From an uncultured Rhodocyclaceae bacterium (GTDB lineage: Bacteria > Pseudomonadota > Gammaproteobacteria > Burkholderiales > Rhodocyclaceae), in assembly GCA_907163225.1 (NCBI GenBank), contig OU015322.1, positions 1,713,001 to 1,777,000 on the forward strand: a DNA stretch of 64,000 nt, written 5' to 3'. The position numbers and the translations under genes are program-made. Below are positions 22,300-53,276 of this stretch, piece by piece. Under the pieces are notes generated by a model. That model searched no databases. It had not been told where the DNA came from and saw only the letters and a program-made list of their open reading frames with translations. How positions within the stretch are numbered: position 1 is the stretch's first letter; every line of letters begins with the position of its first letter.

Positions 22300-22718
22300 C
22301 GGGTGCGATACGAGAAGTGACAGCCGACACAGGCTGAAGTCAGGTTGGGCAGCAGGGCCAGCGCCTTGTCGCGGTCGCCGGTTTTGGCCACGGCGGCGAA
22401 TTCGCTGACCGCCTTGTGGCCATCCATGCCGATGCCGTGCATGGCCGGCGGCATGTGCGGGCCGGGCCGGGCATCGAAGGGCTTGCTGCGATGCTTGCCC
22501 ATGGCCGACATGCCAAGCTTGGCCTCGGCCGCAGCGCCAGCTTCCTTGACCTTGCCTTCGGCCATCAGCGCCAGCACCTCGTTGATCGCCAGCAGGTTGT
22601 CGAGCATTTCCTGACGCAGCGATTCCTGCGCGGCAGGCGGCAGGGTGACGAGCTGACGCGCGTCTTCGGCCATTGCTGCGGTCGACAGGAAAAACAGGGG
22701 AAAAATGAAATATTTCAT
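22296..22718 (-). CDS. Small periplasmic cytochrome c'-like protein
   Basis: 140 residues with a signal peptide ([19 protein letters not shown]) and a single CVGCH heme motif ten residues before the C-terminus. A helical body with a C-terminal heme site is the plan of class II cytochromes (c'). It is inserted between ubiA and ubiD with 4-base ATGA overlaps on both sides, so it is co-translated with ubiquinone biosynthesis enzymes. A role in quinone-linked electron transfer is a guess from position only. Confidence 0.75.
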
Positions 22719-23614
22719 CCGAAGCTCCGTCCGGAAATGATGAAATCGAGCGCAATGCCGGCAAAAATCGCGGCACCGACCCAGTTGTTGTGCAAAAACG
22801 CCTTGAAGCAGGCCATCCGCTCGCGGCCGCGTATCCAGGTGAAATGCACGCCCATGATGCCGGCCGCCACCGCCAGCCCGGTGTAGAAAGCCAGACCAAG
22901 GCTCAGCGTGTAACCGACCCAGCCGATGATGGCCAGCGTGGCCACGTAGCACAGCATGACCGCCGCCACGTCGAAGCGGCCGAAGGTGATGGCCGAGGTT
23001 TTGATGCCGATTTTCAGGTCGTCGTCGCGGTCGACCATGGCGTATTCGGTGTCGTAGGCGACCGCCCAGAACACGTTGGCGAGCAGCAGCCACCAGGCCT
23101 CGGCCGGCACTTCGCCGAGATGTGCCGCGTAGGCCATCGGGATGCCGAAGCCGAAGGCGATGCCGAGGTACGCCTGCGGAATGGCCAGAAAACGCTTGGT
23201 GAATGGGTAGCTGGCGGCGAGGAACAGGGCCGGCACCGACAGCCAGATCACCAGCTGGTTGCCCAGCATGACGACCAGCGCGAAGGCGACCAGCGACAGC
23301 CCGGCGAAAAGCGCCAGCGCCTCCTTCGTCGTTACCTTGCCGGCCGTCAGCGGGCGCTCCTTGGTGCGCTCGACGTGTTTGTCGAAATCGCGGTCAGCGT
23401 AGTCGTTGATGACGCAGCCGGCCGAGCGCATGAGCACCGTGCCGAGCACAAAAACCCACACGACCACCCAGGTCGGCCGCCCCAGCGCCGACAGCCAGAG
23501 CGCCCACAGCGTGGGCCAGAGCAGCAGCAGGATGCCGATCGGCTTGTCGAGCCGCATCAATTGCTCGTATACATCAAGCTTTTGGCGGATTTTGGTAATA
23601 TTTGTCACAGCCAT
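22715..23614 (-). CDS. ubiA: 4-hydroxybenzoate polyprenyltransferase UbiA, island-derived N-terminus
   Basis: 299 residues. An integral membrane prenyltransferase; the aspartate motifs NDYADRDFD and YAMVDRDDD are intact, so it should be active. The first 19 codons ([19 protein letters not shown]) come from the mobile island; from MRLDKP onward the sequence is chromosomal. The original 22 codons (MNWPALKERLDLYEKL plus MRLDKP) are stranded at 53211-53276. The substitute N-terminus is similar to the native one (QKLDVYEQL against ERLDLYEKL), so the island end seems adapted to restore the gene. No good ribosome site precedes the new ATG. It leads the operon that includes ubiD. Confidence 0.93.
23540..23559. 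other. attL core of the ubiA island
   Basis: CGGCTTGTCGAGCCGCATCA, identical to 53211-53230. It lies within the MRLDKP codons of ubiA. Chromosome is to the left, island to the right. The 29.7-kb interval between the two copies starts with a tyrosine recombinase gene. Confidence 0.88.
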
Positions 23615-23620
23615 GTCACA
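23597..23620. promoter_or_regulatory. Putative integrase arm sites, left end
   Basis: TGTCACA at 23603-23609 and again at 23614-23620, 11 bases apart, preceded by AATATTTGTCAC (23597-23608). The same pair with the same spacing occurs at the other end of the island. These sites overlap the start codon of the chimeric ubiA, between it and the divergent integrase gene. Confidence 0.6.
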
Positions 23621-23646
23621 GCACGCAAAAAACAGGAGGTATCAAA

Positions 23647-24630
23647 ATGGGCACGATTCGAAAAAGAGGAGATTATCAGTTCCAGGCTCAGGTTCGTCGA
23701 GCAGGATATCCGCCGCAATCGAAAACCTTTGATGCACGTAAGGACGCGGAGAAGTGGGTTCGCGCTCTTGAGCGCGAAATGGATACTGGCACATTCATTC
23801 CTCGCAGCGAAGCAGAGCGCACGACAATAGCCAAACTGGCCGAACGCTACCTCATAGAGGACCGCGTCTCAGAAATGAAAGGCCGACGCCAGGAGGAGCA
23901 ACGCGTCAACGCAATCTCAGACAAGTTTGGCAAATACCATCTTTCGGCAGTCAGTCCGGCAATGGTTACAGAGTGGATGAAGGAACTAGGAAAGACGCGC
24001 AGCCCCCAAACGGTGCAGCACTATGCTGCCACCCTTGGGCGTCTGTACAAGGCCGCTACGGTCGATTTTGGCATTCCTCTGCCGCTCGGCAATCCATTAA
24101 CTAGCGTGCGAATGCCGGCAGTGCGTAATGAGCGTGATCGCATCCTCGATGCCAATGAAGCAAAGCGCTTGGACGCAGCCCTGGATAAGTCGCGCGGCCA
24201 GCATTTGAAGCCGATAGTGCAGCTTGCATTAGAGACGGCCATGCGTCGTGGTGAGATCCTTGGCCTAACCTGGGACAACATCGATCTGAATAAGCAGATC
24301 GCCTTTCTGCCCAACACGAAGAACGGTGACTCCCGCACTGTGCCGCTGTCCAGTCGCGCCGTGGCCATCCTGAAAGGCCTACCCCGCAACATCAGCGGCA
24401 AAGTCTTCTCAACAAGCATGACAGCAGTTACAGAGGGCTTCCAGCGCGCCGTGCTGCGCGCCGAAATTGAAGACTTCCATTTTCATGACCTGCGGCACTG
24501 TGCTGTGTCAGCTCTGGCGAAAAAGCTCAGCATGCACGAGCTGGCGAAAATGGTGGGGCATCGTTCGCCCAGATCTGTGATGCGCTACTACAAGCAAGAT
24601 GATGCCGATCTGGTTCGGAAGTTAGGGTAA
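23647..24630 (+). CDS. Tyrosine integrase of the ubiA island
   Basis: 327 residues from the ATG at 23647, after a strong AGGAGGT site. The N-terminal part (MGTIRKRGDYQFQAQVRRAG) is an arm-binding domain, then a core-binding domain and a catalytic domain. Catalytic residues: Arg in ETAMRRGEILGLTW, His-x-x-Arg in FHFHDLRHCAV, His in KMVGHRSPRS and Tyr in VMRYYKQD. It is divergent from the chimeric ubiA, only 32 bases away, next to the attL core. It should recombine attP with the MRLDKP codons of ubiA. Confidence 0.94.
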   Translation: MGTIRKRGDYQFQAQVRRAGYPPQSKTFDARKDAEKWVRALEREMDTGTFIPRSEAERTTIAKLAERYLIEDRVSEMKGRRQEEQRVNAISDKFGKYHLSAVSPAMVTEWMKELGKTRSPQTVQHYAATLGRLYKAATVDFGIPLPLGNPLTSVRMPAVRNERDRILDANEAKRLDAALDKSRGQHLKPIVQLALETAMRRGEILGLTWDNIDLNKQIAFLPNTKNGDSRTVPLSSRAVAILKGLPRNISGKVFSTSMTAVTEGFQRAVLRAEIEDFHFHDLRHCAVSALAKKLSMHELAKMVGHRSPRSVMRYYKQDDADLVRKLG

Positions 24631-24936
24631 TACATTGGCATACAGTTGTCATCAAGCCGCACTGAGTCACATTCGGACGTGGGCCATGACATGCTGTCAA
24701 ACAGAAACGTTTGATCTCCATGCTCGATGCAGGGGCTTGGCAAACAATCTCGCCAAGAAATCTGCGCTTAAATCAATAGGAACAAATAGGCTTAAGGGCG
24801 CCACCACTCTCGGCGCGCCCAGCTTTATGTGCAAAAAAAACAACTGTACCAGATCTGAGATACGTTAAATTCCTACTTATGCCGTATGCAAACGCGTTAT
24901 AGCTCACTGCCCAACCAATATCGACAAAATAGGATC

Positions 24937-27900
24937 ATGAACATTTCGAGCAACTTCGCCTTCCTTGCTGAACATGATCCCGTATTTCTGCAGCTGGCAT
25001 CTACTGCTGAGCAGGTATTTGCCGCCGACCCCAACACCACTCTGATCAAGCTCCGGCAGCTTGGCGAGGCACTGGCACAGGATGTTGCCGCGCATGCTGG
25101 TGTGGAATTCGATGCAGACACCAGCCAGGCCGACCTGCTTTCACGCTTGTCCCGCGAAATCCGGCTAGATCCGACGATCCGCAATCTGTTTCACACGCTC
25201 CGTATTGAAGGCAACAAGGCAACGCATCAGTTCCGTACGGTCCATAAGGAAGCAATGGACGGTTTGAAACTGGCTCGCGAACTGGCGGTCTGGTTTCATC
25301 GTTCATTCGGCAAGTCCGGCGCCGGATTCAAACCAGGGCCGTTTGTAGCGCCAACAGATCCCAGTCAAACATTGAGGCTGCTGCAGAGCGAGATCGAACA
25401 GTTGCGTGCCGAGCTTTCGGTCAAGGACAGTGCGCTCGATAGCAAAGAGCAACTGAGCCGCCTGATTGAGCAAGAAAAAGAACAGTACGCAGTGCTGGCC
25501 GAGCAGATGGATGCCGAGGCACGGACTTATCAGGGCCTGGCAGAAGAACAGGCGGCGACACTGGATCGAGTTAGGCAGGAGTTTGAGGAGCGACTTCTAG
25601 CCCTGCAAACACAGCTCTATAAACAGACAGCCCAACAGGTCACACAGCGTACCCAAAATGCCAGCCAGCAACTGACGCTCAGTGAAGAACTGACGCGCAT
25701 CCTGATCGATCAGCAACTGATCGCCGCCGGTTGGGAAGCAGATACTCAAGAACTGAGTTATGCCAAGGGTGCTCGCCCTGAAAAAGGCAAAAACCGGGCA
25801 ATCGCCGAATGGCCGACAGTCGGGAAAGAAGCCGCCGATTACGTCCTTTTCGCTGGACTTACATCAATCGCCGTCGTCGAAGCCAAGCGCGAGAACACCA
25901 ACGTCGCCGGCAAGATCCCACAAGCTGAGCGATATTCCCGTGGTTACTACCAACTGACAGGCGCTCAACCTGCCTGGCAAATTGAAGGATGTGCAGCCGC
26001 CTGGCCAGATGGTCAGAATGGATACTTTGAGGTGCCATTCGTTTATTCCAGCAACAGCCGGCCTTACATCCAGCAACTGGCCGAACAGAGCGGCATCTGG
26101 TTCCGTGATGTGCGCAGCCCATCCAATCTTGCACGGGCATTGATGGATTTCCACTCGCCAGAAGGTCTCCTTGACCAACTGACGCGCAGTAAGGCCGAGG
26201 CAGAAATGAAGCTGCAAACGGAAGGCTTTGCCTATCTGCGGCTACGTGACTACCAGGAACGTGCAATCCAGGCCGTAGAAACTGCGCTGGCTGGTGGTCA
26301 AAGCAAATGCTTGATTGCCATGGCGACGGGCACGGGCAAGACACGTACGATCATTGGCCTGATGTACCGCTTCCTCAAGGCAGAACGCTTCCGCCGTATT
26401 CTGTTCCTGGTGGATCGCAATGCCCTTGGCACTCAGGCGCAGGAGAACTTCGACGAAGCGACGCTGGAGCAGAACCTGCCGCTCTCCAAGCTCTACAACG
26501 TTGCCGAGATGGGTGACATGGCCCCGGAAGCCGAGACCCGCGTCCAGGTCGCCACGGTCCAAGCAATGGTCAAGCGCATTTTTCAGAGCGATACGCCACC
26601 CAATATTGACGAGTACGACTGCATCATTATCGACGAAGCCCATCGCGGCTACACCCTCGACCAGGAGATGAGCGAAGGCGAATTGCTCGTTCGTGACCAG
26701 AATCAGTACCTCTCAACCTACCGTCGCGTCCTCGATTATTTCGATGCGACCAAAATTGCACTGACCGCTACACCAGCCAAGCACACCAGCGAAATCTTCG
26801 GTCGGCCGGTCTATACCTACTCATATCGCGAGGCCGTTGCCGACGATTGGCTGATCGATCACGAACCGCCCATTCGTTACGAGACATTGCTGAACAAACA
26901 CGGCATCAAGTTCGCGAAGGGAGAACAGGTCAGCGCCATTGATTTAGGTACCGGCGAAATCGAACAATCCGAACTTGAAGACGAACTGAGTTTCGAGGTC
27001 GAAAGCTTCAATCGCCGCGTGATCAGTGAAGACTTCAATCGAGTCATTTGCGAGCAACTGGTGCAGGAGCTCGACCCCTTCAGTGAAGAAAAAACGCTAA
27101 TATTCTGCGCAACCGATCTCCACGCGGACATGGTCAAGCATCTGCTCGATGATGCTTTCAAAGCCCTCTATGGTGAGCAATACAACGAAGCGGCCGTCCG
27201 CAAGATCACGGGCAAATCCGACAAGATCAAACAGCTGATCGCGCGCTACAAAAACGAACGCTTCCCCAGCATCGCTATTACCGTTGACCTGCTGACTACA
27301 GGTATCGACGTTCCGGCTATCGCCCATATCGTTTTCATGCGCAGGGTTCGTTCGCGCATCCTTTACGAGCAGATGATTGGTCGTGCAACGCGTCGTTGTG
27401 ACGACATAGGCAAGACCGTATTCAGGATTTACGACCCGGTCGATATCTACAGAGCGCTGCAAGCCGTCAATACCATGCAGCCCCTGGTCAAAGATCCGAA
27501 TGTCACGCTGGATCAGCTAGTCAGCGAACTGGCCAACCCGGTCAGCTTCACCGCTCCAGGCACGAAGCAGGGCGAAAGTCATGCACATGATGTTCTTGAT
27601 GCTATCAGCCAGAAGCTCATGCGCGTTCTGCGTGATGCCACCCACAAGGCGGAGAATGCACCTGCGGTAAAAACCCGGCTGGCCGAATTGGAGCAACATT
27701 GGGGCGTCGCCCCGGCAGTGCTTCACAAGCACCTGCGCGAACTTGGGCCGCAGGGTGCGGCAGAGTTTCTTCGCCAGCAGGCTGCATTGCTGCAACAGAT
27801 CGAAGGGGTAAAGCTGCTGATTGGCAGCCCCTACAAGCCTATTATTTCCGAACACAAGGATGAACTACTCGCTCGTGAACAAAACTATGGCGAATACCAA

Positions 27901-28404
27901 AAGCCGGAAGATTACCTCGACAGCTTCAACCGCTTCATTCATCAACAAATCAACCAATCGGTGGCGCTCGCCGTGGTTGTCAATCGACCAAAAGACCTGA
28001 CCCGCGAGCAACTGCGCGAGGTGCGCCTACTCCTCGATCAACATGGCTATTCCGAGGCACGGCTACAGACCGCCTGGCGTAATCGCAGCAATCAGGAGAT
28101 CGCTGCCAGCATCATTGGTTACATCCGCCAAGCAGCCCTTGGCGAGGCGCTGCAACCCTTTGAACAGAGGGTTGGCAACGCCATGCAGCGCATTTTTGGC
28201 CTCACCGCTTGGAGTCCCGTCCAGCGCAAGTGGTTGGATCGCCTCGCCAAACAGCTACATCACGAGGTTGTTATCGATAGCCAGTTCGTCAATCGTGCCT
28301 TTGCTAACGATGGTGGGGCTATACAGCTCGACAAGCTGCTTGGCGGCAAGTTAGACAACGTGTTGATCACCTTGGCTGAAGCGCTGTGGCCACAGGCGGC
28401 ATGA
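24937..28404 (+). CDS. hsdR: Type I restriction enzyme, HsdR subunit
   Basis: 1155 residues from the ATG at 24937. Order: N-terminal DUF4145-like helical region, a coiled-coil stretch near 150-250, a nuclease domain (DYVLFAGLTSIAVVEAKRE, with an ExK-type end), SF2 helicase with MATGTGKT near residue 460 and IIIDEAHRGY, a second RecA lobe (TTGIDVPAI, QMIGRATRR), and an EcoEI-type C-terminal domain. It is the translocating and cleaving subunit; it needs HsdM and HsdS, encoded downstream in order. The 250 bases before it show no gene. Confidence 0.94.
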   Translation: MNISSNFAFLAEHDPVFLQLASTAEQVFAADPNTTLIKLRQLGEALAQDVAAHAGVEFDADTSQADLLSRLSREIRLDPTIRNLFHTLRIEGNKATHQFRTVHKEAMDGLKLARELAVWFHRSFGKSGAGFKPGPFVAPTDPSQTLRLLQSEIEQLRAELSVKDSALDSKEQLSRLIEQEKEQYAVLAEQMDAEARTYQGLAEEQAATLDRVRQEFEERLLALQTQLYKQTAQQVTQRTQNASQQLTLSEELTRILIDQQLIAAGWEADTQELSYAKGARPEKGKNRAIAEWPTVGKEAADYVLFAGLTSIAVVEAKRENTNVAGKIPQAERYSRGYYQLTGAQPAWQIEGCAAAWPDGQNGYFEVPFVYSSNSRPYIQQLAEQSGIWFRDVRSPSNLARALMDFHSPEGLLDQLTRSKAEAEMKLQTEGFAYLRLRDYQERAIQAVETALAGGQSKCLIAMATGTGKTRTIIGLMYRFLKAERFRRILFLVDRNALGTQAQENFDEATLEQNLPLSKLYNVAEMGDMAPEAETRVQVATVQAMVKRIFQSDTPPNIDEYDCIIIDEAHRGYTLDQEMSEGELLVRDQNQYLSTYRRVLDYFDATKIALTATPAKHTSEIFGRPVYTYSYREAVADDWLIDHEPPIRYETLLNKHGIKFAKGEQVSAIDLGTGEIEQSELEDELSFEVESFNRRVISEDFNRVICEQLVQELDPFSEEKTLIFCATDLHADMVKHLLDDAFKALYGEQYNEAAVRKITGKSDKIKQLIARYKNERFPSIAITVDLLTTGIDVPAIAHIVFMRRVRSRILYEQMIGRATRRCDDIGKTVFRIYDPVDIYRALQAVNTMQPLVKDPNVTLDQLVSELANPVSFTAPGTKQGESHAHDVLDAISQKLMRVLRDATHKAENAPAVKTRLAELEQHWGVAPAVLHKHLRELGPQGAAEFLRQQAALLQQIEGVKLLIGSPYKPIISEHKDELLAREQNYGEYQKPEDYLDSFNRFIHQQINQSVALAVVVNRPKDLTREQLREVRLLLDQHGYSEARLQTAWRNRSNQEIAASIIGYIRQAALGEALQPFEQRVGNAMQRIFGLTAWSPVQRKWLDRLAKQLHHEVVIDSQFVNRAFANDGGAIQLDKLLGGKLDNVLITLAEALWPQAA

Positions 28405-28553
28405 GGTTCTGGATGTAGCCTGACGACCTGATGTAAAGCGATGCCAGCGCCGCAACTATCGGTTGTATACAATGACCGCCTTCTGTGCCCCGCCATATCG
28501 ATTAGAAAATATGCGGCCAGCGCACTATTAAATACGAATATAGAAAACCAAAC

Positions 28554-29990
28554 ATGAGCAACAACGATATCGTCCAGAAGCTCTGGAATCTCTGTGACGT
28601 TCTGCGTGACGATGGGATCAATTACTCCGATTACGTAACCGAGCTGGTGTTGCTGCTTTTCATCAAAATGGAACATGAGAATGCCCAGAGCGGCGTCATG
28701 TCCGGACACAAGCTGCCTGAGGGCGCACGTTGGCCTGACATTGCCAAGCTCAGCGGCCTGAATCTGCTTAACCATTACCGCGCCACGCTGCTGAGTCTTT
28801 CGCAGAGTACGGACCCTCTGATCTCGGCCATCTATGCCGATGCCCAAACCCGGCTCAAGGAACCCCGCCACCTTGAGCAACTGATCAAAAGCATTGATGG
28901 TATCGACTGGTTTTCCGCTCAGCGTGACGGCCTTGGGGACCTCTACGAAGGTCTCCTTGAAAAGAACGCCACAGAAACCAAGTCCGGTGCCGGGCAATAC
29001 TTCACGCCACGCCCGCTGATCGATTGCATTGTGGAACTGATTGCGCCAAAGCCCGGTGAAACAGTGCAGGATCCTGCAGCGGGGACAGCAGGCTTTTTGA
29101 TCGCTGCCGACGCCTACATCAAGGCTCGTACGGACAACCTCTACAACCTCAATGAAAAACAGCGCGAATTCCAGCGCAACAAGGCTTTCATTGGTATGGA
29201 ACTGGTCCCCGGCACCCGCCGGCTGGCGCTGATGAACTGCCTGCTGCACGGCATGGAAGGCGATGCCGAAGGCGTTATTCACCTCGGCAACACACTCGGC
29301 AGTGCCGGTAGCAATCTGCCGAAGAGCGGCATCATCCTCAGCAACCCGCCCTTCGGTACCGCCAAGGGCGGCGGCGGCCCGACCCGCGACGACTTCACGC
29401 ACAGCACCAGCAACAAGCAGCTCGCTTTCGTCCAGCACATTTACCGGCACTTGAAGGATGGCGGCCGTGCCGCTGTCGTGCTGCCCGACAACGTACTCTT
29501 CGAAGCCGGCGTCGGCGCCGACATCCGGCGCGACCTAATGGACAAGTGCAATCTGCACACCATCCTGCGTCTGCCCACCGGCATCTTCTACGCCCAGGGC
29601 GTCAAAACCAATGTGCTGTTCTTCGATAAAGTCAGCCAGCACGCCAGCGGCGGCACGAATGAAGTTTGGGTGTACGACCTTCGCTCCAACATGCCGCGCT
29701 TCGGCAAACGTACACCGCTGACCCGCAACCACTTTGCCAAATTTGAGGCCGCTTTTACTGGCCAACGCATAGACCAGGGGGAAGATGGTCGCTTCCGCTG
29801 CTTCAGTCGTGACTGGATCAGGGACCGTGCCGACAGCCTCGACATTGCCTGGCTAAAAGACGACAACGCCGAAGACGCTGCCGACTTGCCGGAACCGGCC
29901 GTGCTGGCGCAGGAAGCCATGGGGGAGTTGGAAGGGGCACTGGCGGAATTGAAAGCGATTCTGGCAGAGTTGGGTGAGGTGGAGGAATGA
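28554..29990 (+). CDS. hsdM: Type I modification methylase, HsdM subunit
   Basis: 478 residues. N-terminal helical HsdM_N domain, then an N6-adenine methylase fold: QDPAAGTAGFLIAAD binds S-adenosylmethionine and NPPF at residues 264-267 is the catalytic motif. It methylates adenines in the host recognition site and is part of the restriction complex. It overlaps hsdS by 4 bases (ATGA). 149 bases separate it from hsdR. Confidence 0.96.
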   Translation: MSNNDIVQKLWNLCDVLRDDGINYSDYVTELVLLLFIKMEHENAQSGVMSGHKLPEGARWPDIAKLSGLNLLNHYRATLLSLSQSTDPLISAIYADAQTRLKEPRHLEQLIKSIDGIDWFSAQRDGLGDLYEGLLEKNATETKSGAGQYFTPRPLIDCIVELIAPKPGETVQDPAAGTAGFLIAADAYIKARTDNLYNLNEKQREFQRNKAFIGMELVPGTRRLALMNCLLHGMEGDAEGVIHLGNTLGSAGSNLPKSGIILSNPPFGTAKGGGGPTRDDFTHSTSNKQLAFVQHIYRHLKDGGRAAVVLPDNVLFEAGVGADIRRDLMDKCNLHTILRLPTGIFYAQGVKTNVLFFDKVSQHASGGTNEVWVYDLRSNMPRFGKRTPLTRNHFAKFEAAFTGQRIDQGEDGRFRCFSRDWIRDRADSLDIAWLKDDNAEDAADLPEPAVLAQEAMGELEGALAELKAILAELGEVEE

Positions 29991-31462
29991 CTGGACTGCC
30001 TCAAGGTTGGTCTTCAACCCCATTCAAAAACATCTTGAGCCAAATTGTCGGTGGCGGTACGCCATCGAAGGCAAATCCAAGTTTTTTTGATGGTGCCATT
30101 CCATTTATGACCGTGAAAGACCTCTATGGGCGCTTTCCATCAGACACTATTGACCATGTTTCAGAAACGGCGATTGCAAATAGCGCAACCACCGTTGTTC
30201 CGTCAGATACATTGATCGTGGCAACACGAATGTCTTTGGGAAAAATCGTCCGCCCAACTGTAAGTGTGGCCATCAACCAAGACCTCAAGGCTCTATTCCT
30301 AGCGGACGGGATTGACAAAACCTACATCGAATATTTTTGGCGATCTCAATCGGAGCGTATTAACAGTCTTGGTACAGGAACAACAGTCAAAGGTATTCGC
30401 CTTGAGGACATTCGCGAATTAGTGGTTCCGCTTGCCCCGCTCCCTGAGCAAAAACGCATCGCCGACAAACTCGACAGCGTAGTAGCGCGGGTGGACGCCT
30501 GCCGCAACCGCCTCAACCGGCTCCCGGCCCTACTCAAACGCTTTCGTCTATCGATCCTTAACGCCGCCACATCGGGCGCGATAACGGAAGATTGGAGGGC
30601 GAAAAGGGCTGGTCTCCCCATTAGGAAAGCACGGCATGACGTTGAGCAAAGAGAGCAAGCACGAAAAACGGCGGTCAAGGTGCGGGGGTTATCCATCAAC
30701 GTAGCCCCGGAATTGCTCTACGATCTCCCTTCTTCATGGGACTGGATCGATAACTACCGCCTTGCCGATGACAAAGCAAACGCGATTTGCGCAGGCCCAT
30801 TTGGAACCATTTTCAAAGCAAAGGATTTCCGCGAAAAAGGTGTGCCGATTTTATTTTTGAGGCACGTTGGCGCTGGAATGTATTTGACTCGCAAGCCAGG
30901 CTTCATGGATGAGGCTGTTTGGAAAAATCAGCATCAAGAATACTCCGTCTATGGCGGCGAACTACTGGTCACGAAACTTGGCGATCCTCCAGGCAGTTCA
31001 TGCATCTATCCGATAGGAATAGGAACTGCCATGGTTACCCCTGATGTAATGAAGATGTGCGTTGATGAAGTGGTATGCCATCCCAAGTACCTGATGCATT
31101 ACTTCAACTCATCGGCCTCTAAAAAAATTGTCGAATCAGTTTGCTTTGGGGTCACTCGCTTGCGGATCGACCTGTCACTATTCAAGACCTTTCCCGTTCC
31201 GCTGCCCCCAATAGACGAACAAGCCGAAATTGTCCGCCGAGTGGAAATCCTTTTCGAATTTGGCGACCGCCTTGAAGCACGTCTCGCCACCGCCCGTATG
31301 CAGATTGGCCAATTGACGCCCGCGTTGCTCGCCAAGGCATTTCGCGGTGAGTTGGTGTCGCAGGATCCTGCGGATGAGCCGGCGACAGAATTACTCAAGC
31401 GCTTAGCCGAGCTACGCTCCGTAGCCCCTCAGGCCAAACGATGCAGGAAAGCTGCGCGATGA
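29987..31462 (+). CDS. hsdS: Type I specificity subunit HsdS
   Basis: 491 residues with two target-recognition domains, each starting with a characteristic block (SQIVGGGTPSKANPSFFDGA; ICAGPFGTIFKAKDFREKG) and each followed by a helical spacer (PLPEQKRIADKLDSVVARVD; PPIDEQAEIVRRVEILFEF). It sets the DNA sequence read by both HsdM and HsdR. Full length, so the system is probably functional. The recognition sequence cannot be predicted by eye. Confidence 0.94.
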   Translation: MTGLPQGWSSTPFKNILSQIVGGGTPSKANPSFFDGAIPFMTVKDLYGRFPSDTIDHVSETAIANSATTVVPSDTLIVATRMSLGKIVRPTVSVAINQDLKALFLADGIDKTYIEYFWRSQSERINSLGTGTTVKGIRLEDIRELVVPLAPLPEQKRIADKLDSVVARVDACRNRLNRLPALLKRFRLSILNAATSGAITEDWRAKRAGLPIRKARHDVEQREQARKTAVKVRGLSINVAPELLYDLPSSWDWIDNYRLADDKANAICAGPFGTIFKAKDFREKGVPILFLRHVGAGMYLTRKPGFMDEAVWKNQHQEYSVYGGELLVTKLGDPPGSSCIYPIGIGTAMVTPDVMKMCVDEVVCHPKYLMHYFNSSASKKIVESVCFGVTRLRIDLSLFKTFPVPLPPIDEQAEIVRRVEILFEFGDRLEARLATARMQIGQLTPALLAKAFRGELVSQDPADEPATELLKRLAELRSVAPQAKRCRKAAR

Positions 31463-31487: not shown

Positions 31488-32216
31488 ATGAAGCAGCCTG
31501 CCTTAGAACATCCCGTTGATCTGAAAGTGTATTGTGATGAGAGTTGCCACCTAGAACATGACGGTAGCGATGTAATGGTACTAGGGGCGCTATGTGCTCG
31601 TAACGCCGAAGTTGAGCGCGTAATCCGTACGATTAAATCGTTACGCGAAGAGCATAACTACCGAACCGAAATCAAGTGGACAAAGCTTTTTGCGAAACAG
31701 TGGCCTTTTTACAAAAAGTTAATCGACTTGTTTCTGGATGACGATGCTTTTCGTTTTAAAGCAACCGTCGTTCTGAACAAGAGCCAGCTTGACCATGAGC
31801 AATTCAATGAAAATTCTCATGGAACGTTTTATTACAAGATGATGTATTACGCACTTCGCGACTTTGTAGAGCCACAAAAAAGTCTGCGAATATATTTGGA
31901 CTATATGGATACCATGGGAGGCACTAAGGCGGCCACTCTTGCCAATGTACTTAGGAATAAGTTCTTGGCAACTCCCGATGCGCTAAATGTTCACATAATT
32001 CGGTCGCATGAATCGCAAATAATCCAACTTTGTGACTTGTTGATTGGCGCGATTTCATACGCCAACCGTACTGATATACCAAAAACAAGCACAATTAAGA
32101 ATCAGATCGTCGCTTACTTGGAGGAGAAGCTTTGCCGCTCCCTACAGAGTGGTACACCGCCATGGGAAGAGAAGTTCAACCTGTTCATGTTCACGCCGAG
32201 GGCCAGAGCATGCTGA
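31488..32216 (+). CDS. DUF3800 protein (RNase H-like fold) linked to type I RM
   Basis: 242 residues. LKVYCDESCHLEHDGSDVMV at the start and QIIQLCDLLIGAISYANR near 180 are the conserved acidic blocks of DUF3800, a family predicted to have an RNase H-like fold and often found in defence islands. It lies 25 bases after hsdS on the same strand and overlaps the next gene by 7 bases, so it is probably in the hsd operon. Its exact role is unknown. Confidence 0.82.
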   Translation: MKQPALEHPVDLKVYCDESCHLEHDGSDVMVLGALCARNAEVERVIRTIKSLREEHNYRTEIKWTKLFAKQWPFYKKLIDLFLDDDAFRFKATVVLNKSQLDHEQFNENSHGTFYYKMMYYALRDFVEPQKSLRIYLDYMDTMGGTKAATLANVLRNKFLATPDALNVHIIRSHESQIIQLCDLLIGAISYANRTDIPKTSTIKNQIVAYLEEKLCRSLQSGTPPWEEKFNLFMFTPRARAC

Positions 32217-34662: not shown

Positions 34663-34859
34663 TGTGTTGCCTCGAATTTCTGAACTGCTTGCAAATATTG
34701 GTTTGCCGCTTTGTAAGCCAGTTTTTCGGCCATGCTGGCGAATGCCGGCGAGCCGGAAATGGCGTAATCAACGGCAAAACTGCCGACCAGCGAGAACAAA
34801 ACCAGCGTGAACACGAGTGCACTGGTCGCGGAGAAGATAGATTTCTGCTTATCGGCCAT
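34659..34859 (-). CDS. Small membrane protein downstream of mobC
   Basis: 66 residues with one membrane helix (SALVFTLVLFSLVGSFAVDYA). Its start overlaps the mobC stop by 11 bases and its stop overlaps the next start by 4, so it is co-translated with the mobilization genes. Function unknown. Confidence 0.6.
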   Translation of the reverse strand: MADKQKSIFSATSALVFTLVLFSLVGSFAVDYAISGSPAFASMAEKLAYKAANQYLQAVQKFEATQ

Positions 34860-35670
34860 GGTTTTCTCCGGGCCAATTTTGAAAGCTGAAATAGCCGAAT
34901 CGGGCGCGGTGCGTCTCGGTGATCGCCACCGCTTCGCCGTTGAGCTTGACGTGAGTCACACGGGCCATCGCTCTGGCCACCAGCACCTCCACGTTTGGTG
35001 GGCAGACGAAATCGACCCGGCGGAACCGGCCTGCCTTCATATCTTGCAGGTAGGCAAGCCATAACTCTGCATACCGTTTCGGCGTTTTACAGTGCCGCTC
35101 TACCTCTATTGCCACGACCTCGTCGGCAGGACTCGTGGCTACTGCGTCGGGGATCTTCTTCCAGCCTTCGGCCGCAGCCCGGAGGCGCAGAGCGCGCTCC
35201 GGTTGCCAGCGCCATCCGGCGGCCTCGGCCGCCAGGCGTAGGCGCTGGCCGCATAGCTTGTGCTCAACCCATGACGGATTCGTGCGCCCCCGCTCGAAGT
35301 GTGGGGAATCGAAGGCATCCGCCACGGCGCAGCCGTGGGGCGTGATGCCAAACAGCTTCAGCTGCCTGCCTGCGAAGGGGATTGCTTCGCAAGCAATGAG
35401 CGCGTCGCGCTCCATTGCGGCCAGTGCGTCCAGCGCACGGCGGCGGGAGACGCCCATTACGACGGCGGCGATTTCCGACGTCGTCCAGACTTCGCTACTT
35501 GCCAGGAAACGGAGCAGCGATGACCTCTTGTCGGCTGCCCGCGCAAGACGCTGAGTATGTGTCATGGCTGGGAGCGCGGTACGGGTTGCGCCTGCCGGCT
35601 GCGCTGGCTCTGGCGCGGGACCGCCGGGTGGAAGCCCGGGCAGGTCTTGGGTTTTGTCGCATTGCTGCAT
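34849..35670 (-). CDS. mobC: MOBC-family relaxase (CloDF13 MobC-like)
   Basis: 273 residues from the ATG at 35670, preceded by AAAGGACAG. The N-terminal winged-helix part (RLARAADKRSSLLRFLASSE, VVMGVSRRRALDALAAMERD) is of the Replic_Relax type. The C-terminal part has D175 in IPDAV, then E189-x-E191 in AIEVERHCK and K195, matching the PD-(D/E)xK-like centre of MOBC relaxases such as CloDF13 MobC and pAD1 TraX. These nick oriT without the usual HUH motif. The gene follows a VirD4-like gene, as in CloDF13 mobB-mobC. oriT is expected nearby, probably in the hairpin-rich segment upstream of mobB. Confidence 0.78.
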   Translation of the reverse strand: MQQCDKTQDLPGLPPGGPAPEPAQPAGATRTALPAMTHTQRLARAADKRSSLLRFLASSEVWTTSEIAAVVMGVSRRRALDALAAMERDALIACEAIPFAGRQLKLFGITPHGCAVADAFDSPHFERGRTNPSWVEHKLCGQRLRLAAEAAGWRWQPERALRLRAAAEGWKKIPDAVATSPADEVVAIEVERHCKTPKRYAELWLAYLQDMKAGRFRRVDFVCPPNVEVLVARAMARVTHVKLNGEAVAITETHRARFGYFSFQNWPGENHGR

Positions 35671-35752
35671 AATTTCTGTCCTTTCTTGTTTCGACAAGAT
35701 CAGTATCGGGCGACTTCTCGGGAAGCTATTTCTGCCGTCGCCCGGTGGGCGA

Positions 35753-37600
35753 TCAGTCAAGATCCAGAGCACCACCGGCCGGCTTCGCTAGCTCGGCGTG
35801 CTCGAAATCTGGATAGGGCTCTTCGTTAACGATCTCCTCCGGCGTAGCCGGGAGATCGTCCAGGGCGAGCATGGCGGCAGCCACGCTGCCCGTGGCGGCC
35901 GAAGCCGCCGACTCCGGCATCGGTGCTACGGTCGGCGTAATCGCCGCTCTCGTCCGTTCCCCAGCGTTTACAGGCGCGGTGAAGCAAAACCGGGTGAGCG
36001 CGTCGGGAAGAATGAAAGCGGCGCAACCTTTTGGCATGCGGCGCAACATATTTGAGTCGAAGTGGAAGCGCTCGCTCTGGCGAATGGTGCGGTCGGCCTC
36101 GACCCGCTCGGACAAGGCCATACCCCGGGAGACCCGGCGGGACTCATCGTCAACCTGCACCACACCTGTTGCTTTCGCCACTTCGTCTACTGTGTCCCCG
36201 TCGCTAATCGAATAACAGATTTTTAGCGTCGTGTTCTCGCACACTGATCCCTTGACAGCCTCCTTGTCGAGGTCTCCGGGCACGTTTGCCAAATCCGAGA
36301 ACGACTGCATAGCGAGGATGGTGTGGAGCCCCCACCCAGCCGACGCACCCAAAGAAACCATGAACGCGGGCGAAATGTGCACGCGGAATTCGTCGGCGAG
36401 GACGCAGATCGTCCGCCCAGGCTTGAGCTGATCCCGGTTTTTGACCCGGAATAGCAGATGCAGCATGATCATTCGCTGAATAATGAGCGAGGTGGTATTA
36501 ATCATGTCCCCACACACGTAGAGTAGACCGCCCTCCTGCTCGCCGGCGTAGATGGAAACGCCCCCGGTTCCGCACGGCCGGTTGATCGCCGGCACATCGG
36601 CCAGGTCGCGCATGCTGGCGGCAAAGCTCTTGCACTCTTCCCAGGTATCGCCGAGGGCTGCAACGCAGTCACGCGGCGTTTTGCCGGGGTTCGCAGCAAC
36701 CCAGCGGGCTACCTGCCTTGCTGCTGCACGATCTTCGAGGCGATAGAAGTCTGCATCGGTGCCTTTCGGCGTCAGTCCCAAGGCTCCGATCAGCAAAGAT
36801 TCGATTGTCTGGGCCGTGTGCTCACAGCAATGCTCAAAAATGTTGATTTGTGGCGGCTGCCCTTGGTTGATGTTAATAAACCGGTAAGGCAAATTGTGCT
36901 CATCACATACTTTTTTGAAGATATGTGGCATGTAATTGTCAATCTTTGGGTCCAGCACTACCCCGAATTCCCTTTTCATGATCGCTTGCGACATCAGCGA
37001 CTGAACAACAACACCCTTCCCTGAGCGGCTACGGCCAGTCAACAATACGTGGCTGATTTTCCAGGCCTCGTAGTCGTAATAGATTGGCTGCTTGTGTTCA
37101 TCCTTGCCAACAAAGATCTTTTTCAGATCGGTCGGTCCCGTCCAGAATTTTTCCGGATCGTATTGACCGATACTTTTTGGAAGCAGCTTTTCGATATTTC
37201 TGATATCGGTCTTTTTATTGCGCTCCAAGGAGGTGTGAGCCGTGAGCTTCGCACTCAGCTTGTTCGTTTGCTGCGGCAGAAACCGGAGCAGAGCAAACGT
37301 AAGAGCCAGTGAAGCTGCCAGCGATGCTGTGTATTTCCAAGCAACGCCTAAGCCTGCGAGATGCGACTGAGTTAATACGACCGCAACTGCCCAATTTCCG
37401 GCAAAAGCAAATATCGGGACTAAGCCGAGAATAGCCAGCCGATTTAAGGCACGAGCAATTAAACCAGGTTCGCGGTCATCGCCCGTTATATCGATAGCAA
37501 CGATTGCCAGTGGCAATAAAGCCCCGGCTAAATAAATGTGGGGGATAGACAAAACCCAAAGGCACACGATACCCCAGTAACTGATTACGGCATGAAACAT
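35753..37600 (-). CDS. mobB: VirD4/TraG-like coupling protein (CloDF13 MobB-like)
   Basis: 615 residues. Three or four N-terminal membrane helices are followed by a soluble motor domain: Walker A GRSRSGKG with Lys195 and Walker B ICVLADEF. It is an inner-membrane ATPase that hands the relaxase-DNA complex to a secretion channel. Size and order (coupling protein, then relaxase) match the CloDF13 mobilization pair. No other type IV secretion genes are in the island, so transfer would need a helper conjugation system. Confidence 0.85.
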   Translation of the reverse strand: MFHAVISYWGIVCLWVLSIPHIYLAGALLPLAIVAIDITGDDREPGLIARALNRLAILGLVPIFAFAGNWAVAVVLTQSHLAGLGVAWKYTASLAASLALTFALLRFLPQQTNKLSAKLTAHTSLERNKKTDIRNIEKLLPKSIGQYDPEKFWTGPTDLKKIFVGKDEHKQPIYYDYEAWKISHVLLTGRSRSGKGVVVQSLMSQAIMKREFGVVLDPKIDNYMPHIFKKVCDEHNLPYRFININQGQPPQINIFEHCCEHTAQTIESLLIGALGLTPKGTDADFYRLEDRAAARQVARWVAANPGKTPRDCVAALGDTWEECKSFAASMRDLADVPAINRPCGTGGVSIYAGEQEGGLLYVCGDMINTTSLIIQRMIMLHLLFRVKNRDQLKPGRTICVLADEFRVHISPAFMVSLGASAGWGLHTILAMQSFSDLANVPGDLDKEAVKGSVCENTTLKICYSISDGDTVDEVAKATGVVQVDDESRRVSRGMALSERVEADRTIRQSERFHFDSNMLRRMPKGCAAFILPDALTRFCFTAPVNAGERTRAAITPTVAPMPESAASAATGSVAAAMLALDDLPATPEEIVNEEPYPDFEHAELAKPAGGALDLD

Positions 37601-45199: not shown

Positions 45200-45252
45200 C
45201 TGTCCACTATTGGGGAAGTCCACGATAGCCGGGACGTGGTTTGGCCGGCATC

Positions 45253-49201: not shown

Positions 49202-50050
49202 TTATATCGCCCTTGCCGCTTTGTTTACTGTCGCTTCGGCATATTTTCTGGCTTCACCTGAGGTTCGCCGTTTTCCACGTTCTAGGGCGCGCTGAGTGAT
49301 ATTTTCAATTACCCACTCTGCTGGCTGGCCGGCAGCAAGGCGGCTCAGGGCATACCGGAACTCGTGGGCAGATTGATCGCCGTCGTTGCCCTGTGAGGCG
49401 GCAAAGGAGGAAGGCACACTCCCCCTTTGGGGAAGGTTTTGGGGCTTGCCCTGGTCTGCCAGCACGTCGACTGATGGGGAGAGATAGGGAGAAACATCCA
49501 GCAGAGGACCTTCGTTGTTAATCCCAGCAACCTTGATCCAGAACCCATTCCTGCCGGGCTTCTGATTTTTGAAACCAGGATATCGTCCGAAATGTTCGCC
49601 GCTTGTGCTCCCAGCATCGGCGCCAACCAAGCAGGAAAGCCTCGCTTGCGCCTGGTGGCGTTCGTACTCGCTCAACGGCTGCCTTGTGATAATCCATGCT
49701 TGGAAGTTGGCAAGGCTCGTTTCAACGACGATCGAACGGTACTTTTTCGAGACTCTTTCGGCCGTGACGGCGTCCACATCATCAAGGAAAACGATTGGAT
49801 GGTCAGCCGTTTCGCCGGCAGGAAGGTAACGGGCCGGCCGAAAGTAAACATTACAGCCCTTCATGTTGCAGGCCATCGCCCAGGCGAGCGACTTTTCGAC
49901 TTCGACGCGTCCACGCGGGCGACTATCGCCCTTCATGCACTCGCCATTGCCGCTTTTTCGTGGTCCCAGAACGGCGAGGTTGACTAGATCGACGCCGTTT
50001 CTGGTGAAAAAATCGAGGAATTGAATGGATTGTTTTTGCAGGAAAGTCAT
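49202..50050 (-). CDS. repB: RepB'-like DNA primase (IncQ type)
   Basis: 282 residues. VDLVNLAVLGPRK at the start and the central VFLDDVDAVTAERVSKKYRS, with ETSLANFQAWIITRQPLSEY, fit the RepB primase domain of IncQ plasmids such as RSF1010. There the domain is fused to the MobA relaxase or made separately as RepB'; here it stands alone. It would prime each strand at oriV. It is the third gene after repA and repC on the same strand, 190 bases behind repC. Confidence 0.78.
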   Translation of the reverse strand: MTFLQKQSIQFLDFFTRNGVDLVNLAVLGPRKSGNGECMKGDSRPRGRVEVEKSLAWAMACNMKGCNVYFRPARYLPAGETADHPIVFLDDVDAVTAERVSKKYRSIVVETSLANFQAWIITRQPLSEYERHQAQARLSCLVGADAGSTSGEHFGRYPGFKNQKPGRNGFWIKVAGINNEGPLLDVSPYLSPSVDVLADQGKPQNLPQRGSVPSSFAASQGNDGDQSAHEFRYALSRLAAGQPAEWVIENITQRALERGKRRTSGEARKYAEATVNKAARAI

Positions 50051-50229
50051 TTTAGTCTCTGATTTGGGTTTTGGTTTTACCTTCCCCCCAAGGGGGCTGT
50101 GGCCTTGGGGGTTTTCCGAGGCGGCCGCGCCACTAGGCGGCGGCTTGCCCCTTGTTTAATACAAGGTGTTATACATAGCGCCAAAACAGACGAAGACGAT
50201 TGCAGGGAGGGTGTTTACAAAACCTAGCG

Positions 50230-50269
50230 GTTGCACGTTCGTCAGTCTTTTGTTGCACGTTCGTCAGTC
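50230..50269. repeat. Two iteron-like direct repeats
   Basis: GTTGCACGTTCGTCAGTC occurs exactly at 50230-50247 and 50252-50269, a period of 22 bases. IncQ origins use 20-base iterons with short spacers bound by RepC. The repeats overlap the last codons of repC. Only two copies are seen, fewer than in a classical IncQ origin. Confidence 0.55.
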
Positions 50270-51126
50270 CGGCTGATTGTAGCGTGACCACTGTTGCCGG
50301 CCAGGGCGATCGAGAAAGCACCGGATTCGTTGACTTCTGCAATCGCCTCAGAAATTGCTTTTTTTCTGCGACTGCGAGTGCTTTTCTCATTGGCAAGACC
50401 GCCGTAAACGTGCCGCTCAATTTTTTCAAAGCTGATTGATCGCTCCCCCGCTTTCACACCGCCAAACCAGGCAGATAGCCAGCCGTAGAGGATCTTTGCG
50501 GGCGCACTGCGCAATTTTCTATACGTCCGCATCGACACAGCGGCATAGCTGCCTTCCCCCATTACAGCCTTCGTCAAACGAGCTGAGATATGGATGTTGA
50601 GGCCGCCGTCTTCACCCCATTCATCATGGATCAAGTGGGTTTTCACGTGTTGCTTGTCTGCCCTCCCTTCCACTACTATGGTCATCAACCTGCGTAGACT
50701 TTTGTCAACGGACACCCATTGGTTGCCTGCAGCTTCGACGCCTACCGCCCGGCAGATCTCTGCTTTTGTTGTCTTGAGAACAAGCACGTCGTTGGTTAGC
50801 GCCAAATTTTGCGGGCGCCGATCCGTGATAAGGCCGGGGGGTGCCTGATTGCCGGGCAGCAAAACGTATTCATCGTTTTTCATTGCCAGAGAAAGAATGG
50901 CAAGAAGAACCCCTAGGTCCCCTTCGTCACACTCCACCCCTTGAATGATTACTTTTCCTCCGTTCCAGGCTTGTTCAAGCGTCACTTCCTTTCTGTCACG
51001 TTGCTTTCCTGTGACATGAAACAGTCCAGAGAGACCAATGGCCATATCGTTTCTGGCCACCTCCTGCCGCCGCTCAATATTTAATCGAGCGGCAGCCGAC
51101 GTTTTTCCTGGTTTAGATCGCGCCAT
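50242..51126 (-). CDS. repC: IncQ-type replication initiator RepC
   Basis: 294 residues from the ATG at 51126 (MARSKPGKTSAAARLNIERR). The body shows the RepC pattern (LFHVTGKQRDRKEVTLEQAW, LNIHISARLTKAVMGEGSY, RKLRSAPAKILYGWLSAWFG) and the length is close to the 283 residues of RSF1010 RepC. It should bind iterons and open the origin. It overlaps the repA end by 14 bases. The final codons lie within an iteron-like repeat. Confidence 0.82.
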   Translation of the reverse strand: MARSKPGKTSAAARLNIERRQEVARNDMAIGLSGLFHVTGKQRDRKEVTLEQAWNGGKVIIQGVECDEGDLGVLLAILSLAMKNDEYVLLPGNQAPPGLITDRRPQNLALTNDVLVLKTTKAEICRAVGVEAAGNQWVSVDKSLRRLMTIVVEGRADKQHVKTHLIHDEWGEDGGLNIHISARLTKAVMGEGSYAAVSMRTYRKLRSAPAKILYGWLSAWFGGVKAGERSISFEKIERHVYGGLANEKSTRSRRKKAISEAIAEVNESGAFSIALAGNSGHATISRTDERATKD

Positions 51127-52027
51127 TTCTTTTGCTTTTGCCTTGTGCGTAATCCTGTGAATCCTCTTTTTTCTTATCAAGGGGAGAGTGCCCAGGGCAA
51201 TACAGGACGCCTCCATCCCCTCGTTTTAGCCAGATCTTGCCGTCCTCTTCCCCGTGATTTGCCTTCCCATTAGCCAGCACTCGCCAATCTCGCCGGTCTT
51301 TATCATTGGCGGTCGACACCTTCGCTTCTTCCTTGCTCATCCGCCGAATGGTCCACACGGCCCGGCAACCCGCAGGAAGGTCGGTTGCGCCACGCCCTGC
51401 ATGGTGGTCCTCCCTGCCATCAAGAATTGCTCCCTGACTGGCGTGGTGCACCAAGATGATCGTGACACCGATCTCCATGGCTGTTTCCACAAACCACCGA
51501 ATGAGGAAGTCCATGCCCGGCCCATCGTTCTCCTGCAAGTCGTGGAACATCCGAAGGGGATCAACAAAGGTCAGCCCGTACTCTTTAAGCTGCTGTTTAA
51601 ATATCTCTGCATGAGGTGTTGTTCGATAGCCTTCCCCGCTTTTTTCAATCAGTGGTTTGCGCTTCCCCGTCAGGGGAAGAAGAGTGACGCTGTCGTCATC
51701 ATCTCTCACTACCACCCCGTCTTTTTCAAGCTGTTTGTAAAGAGCCTTGAGCCTTCTCCCGTGGTCATCTCTGCGATCTTCCCCCGTGATTATCAAGACC
51801 TTCCTTGTGTGCCGACCAGGGGTGAATATCTTGCCCGCTGAAATGCCGAGGCCGACCGTGGCAGCGATTGTTAGCGTAAGAAAACTCTTCCCCACGCCAT
51901 CACTCCCGGAAATGAGTCCGACATCGCCGGGCTGGAGGGGGCCAAAGATAAAATCAGGGTTCGGCCAGTGCTGCCGCCCGGCGGCGGCAAGTGTAAGCGG
52001 CTCGCCCCAGGATTGATCGTGGCTCAT
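51113..52027 (-). CDS. repA: IncQ-type RepA helicase
   Basis: 304 residues. A RecA-like hexameric helicase of the RSF1010 RepA type: Walker A GSDGVGKS near residue 41, VLIITGEDRRDD, Walker B-like YGLTFVDPLRMFHD and VTIILVHHASQGA. It would unwind plasmid DNA at the origin. Start overlaps the previous stop as ATGA and its end overlaps repC, so the replication genes form one coupled unit. Confidence 0.85.
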   Translation of the reverse strand: MSHDQSWGEPLTLAAAGRQHWPNPDFIFGPLQPGDVGLISGSDGVGKSFLTLTIAATVGLGISAGKIFTPGRHTRKVLIITGEDRRDDHGRRLKALYKQLEKDGVVVRDDDDSVTLLPLTGKRKPLIEKSGEGYRTTPHAEIFKQQLKEYGLTFVDPLRMFHDLQENDGPGMDFLIRWFVETAMEIGVTIILVHHASQGAILDGREDHHAGRGATDLPAGCRAVWTIRRMSKEEAKVSTANDKDRRDWRVLANGKANHGEEDGKIWLKRGDGGVLYCPGHSPLDKKKEDSQDYAQGKSKRNGAI

Positions 52028-52473
52028 AGCTGCACCCCCGCCAGACCCAGATCAAGGGAAAGTTGACCTGCCAGCCTTGCGCGCTCCCTACGTGCGCCAG
52101 CAACGTCACGGCGCCGCCCTGGTTCACGAACGCGGCCAGAGGCAATCAGTTCCTTGCAGCGGCGCTGAACGCGCCAGCAGATTACTTGCCACTCATCCCC
52201 GATCACCTCTTCCCCTTCAAGCTGGCGCAAGTGATTCATGGCGTTGTAGCAAGTCTCACCAATGGCATTGTCTTCACTGAAGAAGGCAGCTGCGGCGGCC
52301 ACTACCGACCATGCCGGAGTTGCAACCGCAAGGCTGCGCAGGCCGTTTTCATGGACGCTGGCGCAAAGCCGAAGCCGCCCCATGAAATCGCGGGCGGACG
52401 AGTGCCGGACCGGCGCTTCGTGAAGGTCCAGCTCCATGAGCTCCATGGTTTGTTCATCGCGTAGATCGATCAT
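52024..52473 (-). CDS. Hypothetical protein upstream of repA
   Basis: 149 residues, no recognised domain, with a basic arginine-rich C-terminus (RVREPGRRRDVAGARRERAR). It overlaps both neighbours by 4 bases, so it is part of the replication operon. By position it recalls the small repF gene of IncQ plasmids, but no similarity could be checked. Confidence 0.55.
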   Translation of the reverse strand: MIDLRDEQTMELMELDLHEAPVRHSSARDFMGRLRLCASVHENGLRSLAVATPAWSVVAAAAAFFSEDNAIGETCYNAMNHLRQLEGEEVIGDEWQVICWRVQRRCKELIASGRVREPGRRRDVAGARRERARLAGQLSLDLGLAGVQL

Positions 52474-52814
52474 TGCTGCAGCTCCTGCTGGAGTGCAGCG
52501 CGGCGACGTTGCTCCGCCTTGGTGGGGCGGCCAACACGGGCAGCTGGTTCAGTTTTTACAGGCGCAGGGGTAGCAGCCTCTTGGTGCTGGCGGAGCCAGG
52601 AAATAATATCGGCGACAATCCAGCGCGGCGACTTACAGCCAGGCGGCGTGCATGCCGGCGGGATTTTGTGAGGGGCGCGACTGCGGTCGGCAAAAATTGT
52701 GGCCGGCGATTTATCAATGAGAATAGACAAGCCATCGGCGCCGACGACCGGTGGAAAGGCGCTTTGCGTTGCGCCGATATCAAGCGAATAACCAGGTAGG
52801 GTATGGTGGGGCAC
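52470..52814 (-). CDS. AlpA/HTH_17-like DNA-binding protein, first gene of the rep operon
   Basis: 114 residues from a GTG at 52814 with AAGGAA upstream. SILIDKSPATIFADRSRAPH, PPGCKSPRWIVADIISWLRQ form a helix-turn-helix of the AlpA/MerR-like kind, and GRPTKAEQRRR near the end resembles an AT-hook. As the first gene of the repA-repC-repB unit it may regulate copy number or serve as an excision factor. Overlaps the next gene as ATGA. Confidence 0.6.
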   Translation of the reverse strand: MPHHTLPGYSLDIGATQSAFPPVVGADGLSILIDKSPATIFADRSRAPHKIPPACTPPGCKSPRWIVADIISWLRQHQEAATPAPVKTEPAARVGRPTKAEQRRRAALQQELQQ

Positions 52815-53195
52815 GGCTTTTTCCTTTTAGGAAAATCGTGCCCACTGGCTGATAGTTCTGCTGCTTCAAATTAGCAGCTCGTTTCCCCATCAGCGGGGTG
52901 TTTGAAGCGGGAAGGGCTTATTTTTTGATCGCCTTCAGCCGGTATGGTGGCCGGTGCGGGTAATCACTAATTCCCCGCCACACCTGAAATCAGCCCTCAT
53001 AATCTACCTGCCAAATTTAATTGTCAATACCTGCGTGACAAATATTTTCTTGTATAGCCCAGCACCCCAGCGGTCTTGTCACACCTATGTCACATGACGC
53101 TGTGACAACAAGCGTAAATGACTGTCTATCCAAAGTAATCGAAAGTATTATTTATTGTTTAATTTCAACACACAGAACACTTGCATGCCATGCTA
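52815..53195. other. Right-end noncoding region of the island
   Basis: No gene. The left part holds the rep operon promoter region with a GC-rich hairpin near 52890. The right 160 bases hold the putative integrase arm sites and AT-rich sequence leading to attR. Confidence 0.5.
53035..53107. promoter_or_regulatory. Putative integrase arm sites, right end
   Basis: TGTCACA at 53077-53083 and 53088-53094 repeats the spacing seen at the left end; an inverted TGTGACA is at 53101-53107. GTGACAAATATT at 53035-53046 is the reverse complement of the left-end AATATTTGTCAC. Confidence 0.6.
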
Positions 53196-53276
53196 TTACA
53201 TTGAATGATGCGGCTTGTCGAGCCGCATCAGCTTTTCGTAGAGATCGAGTCTTTCCTTGAGGGCGGGCCAGTTCAT
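53196..53276 (-). pseudogene. ubiA: Severed native 5' end of ubiA
   Basis: From the ATG at 53276 the minus strand reads MNWPALKERLDLYEKLMRLD then KP, the normal UbiA start, and then enters island DNA as HHSM followed by TAA at 53196-53198. The remaining UbiA sequence is at 22715-23557. It keeps the native upstream context 27 bases behind the gene at 53304-54065. It may still be translated as a 26-residue peptide of no likely function. Confidence 0.9.
53206..53230. other. attR of the ubiA island, perfect inverted repeat
   Basis: TGATGCGGCT (53206-53215), spacer TGTCG (53216-53220), AGCCGCATCA (53221-53230): a perfect 10-base inverted repeat round a 5-base centre, the usual form of a tyrosine recombinase core. 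Its right 20 bases equal attL. Island is to the left, chromosome to the right. Confidence 0.85.

Follow-up and report, generated by a model that had tools for sequence, protein, structure and literature searches.

A mobile island in the start of ubiA in a Rhodocyclaceae bacterium, its replacement N-terminus and its putative relics

The integrative element SXT provides its target gene prfC with a new start and a promoter. Its attachment site attB is the 5' end of prfC (PMC2654960, PMC3715440), and genomic islands have been described to reconstitute in many cases the gene that they enter (PMC12884075). Closely comparable systems are the dusA islands and prophages, which carry an integrase, insert where a protein gene begins and replace the 5' end of that gene with sequence of their own; a replacement beta strand as well as putative promoters have been proposed for them (PMC4482086). 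The island described here, which is inserted in the start of ubiA, resembles the dusA islands in that the 5' end of a protein gene is supplied by the element. It differs from them, however, in its target, which is dusA or dusB in their case, and the available portion of that account describes neither an overlap of an arm site with a start codon nor a series of relics (PMC4482086). Membership of the dusA-specific integrase family was considered and rejected, the insertion lying in ubiA. With the SXT/R391 ICEs at prfC, the island shares a tyrosine recombinase and an attB close to where a protein gene begins (PMC2654960, PMC3715440), whereas those ICEs are conjugative elements of ~100 kb with another target gene and other cargo. 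Searches of the open-licence literature retrieved no paper that presents ubiA as an integration target in its title or the listed opening of its abstract: the elements treated in the excerpts of PMC5797428 occupy tRNA genes, with UbiA appearing there only as the label of a gene in the legend to a figure, and the matching word in the excerpt of PMC12134362 is the name of an unrelated method. Replacement of the 5' end of a target gene is already known from the dusA islands, while ubiA as the target was not found in print within this material; the integrase clade described below is of a known kind.

The window, by which we mean the whole analysed stretch of 64,000 nucleotides, contains a mobile island of 29,671 bp, measured core to core, that is inserted in the start of ubiA. 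The island ends and their surroundings comprise the following features, in window coordinates:

20824..22718, minus strand: genes downstream of ubiA, namely ubiD (20824-22302) and a cytochrome c'-like gene (22293-22718; weak match, below the Pfam cut-off)
22715..23608, minus strand: chimeric ubiA with a conserved GTG start; reading frame also open from an ATG at 23614; Pfam UbiA, 1.1e-64
23540..23559, plus strand: attL core on the integrase side, 20 bp; contains, on the minus strand, the ubiA codons for MRLDKP
23558..23608, minus strand: 17 island-supplied replacement codons
23603..23620, plus strand: TGTCACA pair with a spacing of 11 bp, candidate arm sites for the integrase, the first of which overlaps the GTG start of ubiA
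23647..24630, plus strand: tyrosine recombinase (integrase), 327 aa; PF00589, 5.5e-28
23672..23700, minus strand: weak promoter-like site upstream of the chimeric ubiA, inside the integrase gene; not above chance
53077..53107, plus strand: paired TGTCACA and inverted TGTGACA, candidate arm sites of the far end
53211..53230, plus strand: attR core, 20 bp, identical to the attL core; with its flanks a 10-bp inverted repeat around TGTCG
53211..53276, minus strand: stranded native 5' end of ubiA (MNWPALKERLDLYEKLMRLDKP)

The 20-bp core, CGGCTTGTCGAGCCGCATCA, is present in two identical copies (23540-23559 and 53211-53230) and nowhere else in the window, and the pair constitutes the sole exact match of at least 12 bases between the end regions 23401-23720 and 53101-53400. 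This comparison bears out the claim of the earlier note, made from the sequence before the present analysis, that both cores fall within the MRLDKP codons of ubiA. Its claim that the native start of the gene lies stranded some 29.7 kb away held as well: the attR side reads MNWPALKERLDLYEKL-MRLDKP, a second, native ubiA start, and joining of the two flanks by script restores a native UbiA start of the MNW type. At E<=1e-3 a single ubiA match was obtained in the genome, which consists of one contig of 3,463,890 bases; hence, the chimera is the only UbiA found. As is generally known from ubiquinone biosynthesis, ubiA is important for growth.

Uninterrupted ubiA of the native type was seen in relatives of the same genus. 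The gene was found in 56 of 60 genus genomes, at 57 places, 30 of which were read as DNA. Besides the window's own locus, these comprise 28 loci devoid of an integrase match (E<=1e-5) in the flank, all of which start with ATG and 24 of which are of the MNW type, as well as the locus of genome G070, which features both an integrase and a chimera. Close integrase homologues (E<=1e-75) are confined to two of 76 genus genomes, the window's own and G070, and to four of the 297 genomes in the family-wide sample, where the copies of G208 and G712 do not lie beside ubiA; across the order, 11 of 399 genomes contain a homologue at E<=1e-68, located beside ubiA only in the window's own genome. The G070 integrase is 85% identical to that of the window and again stands divergently beside a chimeric ubiA, and its element extends over 41,835 bp between two identical cores, with a native ubiA start, MNWPALKERIDLYEKL, preceding MRLDKP at the far core. 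From the family-wide sample, G607 contributes an integrase of 66% identity beside ubiA and an element of 8,870 bp, the cores of which differ at 2 of 20 bases and the far core of which follows the native start MDLVAVKTRLDLYEKL before MRLDKP. An attB-type target, the 5' end of ubiA, together with both cores is visible in three complete elements, and these independent relatives support a site-specific integration that would have swapped the UbiA N-terminus in frame.

The island-type N-terminus might instead be an ordinary native variant of ubiA in some lineages, next to which an integrase came to lie by chance, as G022 and G615 indeed possess ubiA genes that start with GTG, encode a VTT... N-terminus and lack an integrase match. 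Such a coincidence is hardly credible, however, considering that in three of three complete elements another native ubiA start, seemingly complete, is present at the far core, that the similarity runs on into non-coding arm DNA and the integrase gene, and that the integrase-free genus loci all begin with ATG and predominantly with the MNW type.

With a probability of roughly 0.88, the locus represents an integrative, probably mobilisable element at the ubiA core, from whose GTG the chimera is read, while the native start is parked and restored upon excision. In this mechanism, a tyrosine recombinase would recombine the 20-bp core of attP with its identical counterpart in ubiA, located in the MRLDKP codons close to the gene start, and attP would carry, beside its core, 17 in-frame codons that mimic the UbiA N-terminus. 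Following integration, ubiA would be read as a chimera from the island-borne GTG, and the 16 native upstream codons would remain parked at attR until excision restores them.

The tyrosine recombinase gene is situated at the left island end, divergent from ubiA, with 38 bp separating the two starts. The R, K, HxxR, H and Y positions that are likely to be catalytic in this family are invariant in the three integrase copies, and the enzyme would presumably act on the cores described above. The motif TGTCACA, or its inverse TGTGACA, occurs 10 times in the 64 kb of the window, five of these in the 300 bp that make up the element arms, 10 times in 100 kb of G070 (five in the arms, with two pairs) and seven times in 17.5 kb of G607 (six in the arms, with two pairs, the far one being one base short). 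Within these three stretches of 64, 100 and 17.5 kb, TGTCACA pairs with a spacing of 11 bp are restricted to the two element ends. The pairs are probably integrase arm sites, and the GTG start of ubiA sits in the motif on the integrase side.

In a tree of 32 integrases, the three intact ubiA-linked copies form one clade (100/100). The other 29, derived from the same genus, family or order and 31-48% identical, are recombinases of the same Pfam type and of similar length, but differ from the island integrase in that 13 of them have a tRNA gene at a distance of up to 400 bp and none lies beside ubiA in the flanks read. A change of target in which ubiA took the place of tRNA genes would agree with this tree, the deep branches of which are open; the direction is a presumed one. 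A viral origin of the element was rejected, since viral contigs contain only distant integrase relatives (22-29% identity); the arm pattern found no match in viral contigs, and phage records gave no DNA match. A plasmid source was likewise discarded: integrase relatives are present in 2,498 plasmid records, all below 60% identity, with 37.6% as the best among those listed.

The earlier note had proposed that the island supplies ubiA with a new start and 19 codons, of which the in-frame start stood, whereas the replacement proved to comprise 17 codons from the GTG at 23608 instead of 19 from the ATG. Read from the ATG at 23614, the operon-side UbiA protein opens with MA before the GTG-encoded residue. 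This ATG was rejected as a conserved start, as it is AAG in G070 and G607, although G680 shares it, while the in-frame GTG is preserved in all 12 replacement-region sequences compared; hence, the replacement is read as 17 codons. In G813 an ATG directly follows the GTG.

The resemblance of the replacement peptide to the native one, also claimed by the earlier note, is evident from shuffling, as the observed similarity score was reached by none of 20,000 shuffles for the window, none for G070 and one for G607. The upstream codons could in principle constitute an untranslated or irrelevant leader of accidental resemblance, with ubiA being read from the ATG of MRLDKP. In line with this, an in-frame ATG is available at the core, the Pfam UbiA domain begins at residue 31, and no clear Shine-Dalgarno sequence was recognised by eye before the GTG at 23608. 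A mere leader is nonetheless quite improbable in view of the shuffling result, the lack of stop codons from the 17 codons in 12 of 12 sequences and a low pN/pS that is specific to the ubiA frame. Over codons 5-17 of nine sequences, pN/pS amounts to 0.303, compared with a permutation mean of 0.85 and with 1.08 and 1.5 for the replacement codons in the shifted frames; values as low arose in 0 of 500 column permutations for these nine, in 0 of 1000 for all 12 sequences (0.297) and in 18 of 997 for the three intact elements alone (0.229), counts that are no strict probabilities because the sequences share kinship. As judged from these ratios, the replacement codons are under purifying selection, and the low values at codons 5-17 imply that the core-adjacent part of the peptide is held as protein. 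Codons 2-4 after the GTG are hardly constrained as protein (pN/pS 0.73), which would be anticipated for codons kept for DNA reasons, and the first replacement codons are probably held as DNA. The notion that the element was selected to keep ubiA working thereby gains support as far as retention of the replacement is concerned.

On the other hand, the assertion of the earlier note that ubiA, the cytochrome gene and ubiD are under the control of an island promoter was not substantiated, given that the promoter scan returned one 9-of-12 site where 0.7 +/- 1.0 are expected by chance. Transcription of ubiA from an island promoter is presumed, as is an enzymatically functional chimera that would rescue the interrupted gene. 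Among solved structures one distinct sequence (4od4/4od5) aligns, beginning at residue 57, and therefore the replaced segment cannot be placed on a structure.

The interior of the island encodes the following functions:

24886..31462, plus strand: type I restriction-modification genes hsdR, hsdM and hsdS (cargo)
34849..37600, minus strand: MobC-like protein (167.8 bits, curated cut-off 200) and TraD/TraG-like coupling protein
49202..52027, minus strand: RepB-type primase, RepC and RepA-like ATPase, forming a replication module
52470..52814, minus strand: small protein of 114 aa adjoining attR, guessed to be an excisionase

Two transposases are carried in addition. Among the ORFs scanned in the window element no relaxase was identified, and the G607 element contains a MobA/MobL relaxase. 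The island is a candidate integrative and mobilisable element, a class defined by an integrase of its own and mobilisation genes in the absence of a complete conjugation apparatus. The RepA/RepB/RepC module is similar to that of IncQ plasmids, and the element may replicate after excision. Apart from the integrase, the 114-aa protein is the only one of 11 island proteins tested that matches both other complete elements, and its homologues adjoin attR in all three; its location and small size prompt the guess that it acts as an excisionase.

Several further observations concern the gene content of the region. Directly after the type I genes, a DUF3800 protein and its partner (31488-32752) match the PADLOC candidate defence models PDC-M04A and PDC-M04B. 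At 40231-44074, an HSP90/HATPase-like protein of 894 aa neighbours an ORF of 390 aa without a Pfam match, and in the G070 element an HATPase protein adjoins a metallophosphoesterase (L077 14813-18597); both sets of HATPase genes and neighbours are possible defence pairs. The G070 element also contains a second recombinase gene (Pfam Integrase_1; L077 6743-7633) soon after the first. To the left of the ubiA island, a tRNA-Phe gene (5904-5979, minus strand) lies beside an ORF (4511-5740, minus strand) that weakly matches the integrase query (E 1.8e-4), and a second element is possibly located there.

Beyond the complete elements, integrase sequence (E<=1e-3) was detected upstream in 24 of 123 ubiA loci, which represent eight genomes, all with an island-type start: three intact copies (the window, G070 and G607) and five remnants. 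The integrase seems to have suffered an internal deletion in G762, where it lies at the end of a contig, to be fragmentary in G680 (pieces within 1-171 and 235-275) and partial in G788, and to have shrunk to residues 1-33 in G703 and to residues 1-23 in G245. In G475, G495 and G813 the arm region alone is kept, with no integrase detected, and the locus of G802 ends at a contig edge. Since the G762 locus is contained wholly and letter for letter in a Propionivibrio contig from the contig scan, the two are the same contig. In G703, a homologue of the gene at window 56833-58713 lies 1.4 kb from the chimeric start, so that little of an element can remain there, given that in G070 and G607 this gene is situated no more than 0.9 kb past attR.

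The earlier note had regarded the occurrence of the same start in genomes without an integrase next to ubiA as evidence against its interpretation. Among 97 genomes in which the ubiA start was read, VTNITKIR is limited to the window's genome and G070, both with an integrase, a sample that gives no prevalence as it was picked partly by likeness to the chimera, with the peptide being incomplete in four of the 97. Homologous starts do occur without an intact integrase in G762, G680, G703, G245, G788, G475, G495 and G813, so that the counter-evidence named by the earlier note is seen in part only.

Of 395 family genomes, 18 gave a match to a model built from the arm sequences, in each case at a ubiA start; 12 matches reach E<=2.1e-9, nine of which had been used to build the model, leaving G802, G788 and G813 as strong new ones. 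The six weak matches (E 8e-6 to 1e-3) include G593 with a plain native MNW start and, for this reason, were neither counted as relics nor used in the selection tests. Across the order, two of 399 genomes matched, both belonging to the window's family, in a sample that lists 13 genomes of this family and under strict filters that lose weak matches. Among further loci, G534 combines a different, ATG-started ubiA with a weak integrase-like match (E 0.012 with the window integrase) and falls into no clean class, while a query with the truncated integrase of L055 picked up only weak similarities (E at least 0.003) beside native ubiA starts, and this integrase was left out of the panel. The loci L170 (G030) and L168 (G801) are weak model matches with VVTNI and VVNI starts, and G801 retains a short integrase-like start, MATIRKRGE; these two are possibly older relics or products of another integrase subfamily that uses the same site.

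We read the loci without an intact integrase as relics of the same element family, in which the element body would have been lost; the borrowed ubiA start seems to outlive the element. Alternatively, the start of ubiA could have been rearranged independently at each of these sites, by other recombinases or by recombination, and it agrees with this that G475, G495 and G813 display similarity over the length of the arm only, and that the upstream DNA read, ~16-18 kb in G245, G475, G680 and G703 and 3.5 kb in G495, did not contain a second core. Independent origins are nevertheless unlikely, as the integrase codons of G703, G245 and G680 are kept at the expected place and on the expected strand. 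With relics as the preferred reading, the decay series from intact element to scar is unusually clear.

We lean, by a modest measure, towards a broader interpretation, according to which the element family acts as a recurrent donor of a first, exon-like segment of ubiA, an essential quinone gene, and the borrowed N-terminus has on several occasions been retained permanently by hosts after loss of the integrase and element body. Because the arm site would hold the start codon, attachment DNA and host N-terminus would be forced to evolve together. With the ubiA island, the known targets whose start has to be rebuilt by the mobile element invading them now include a core respiratory gene, and the graded series from intact element to scar makes permanent rewriting of host proteins testable. 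Moreover, attachment-site DNA that doubles as a start codon constitutes a compact case of two functions being selected on one sequence.
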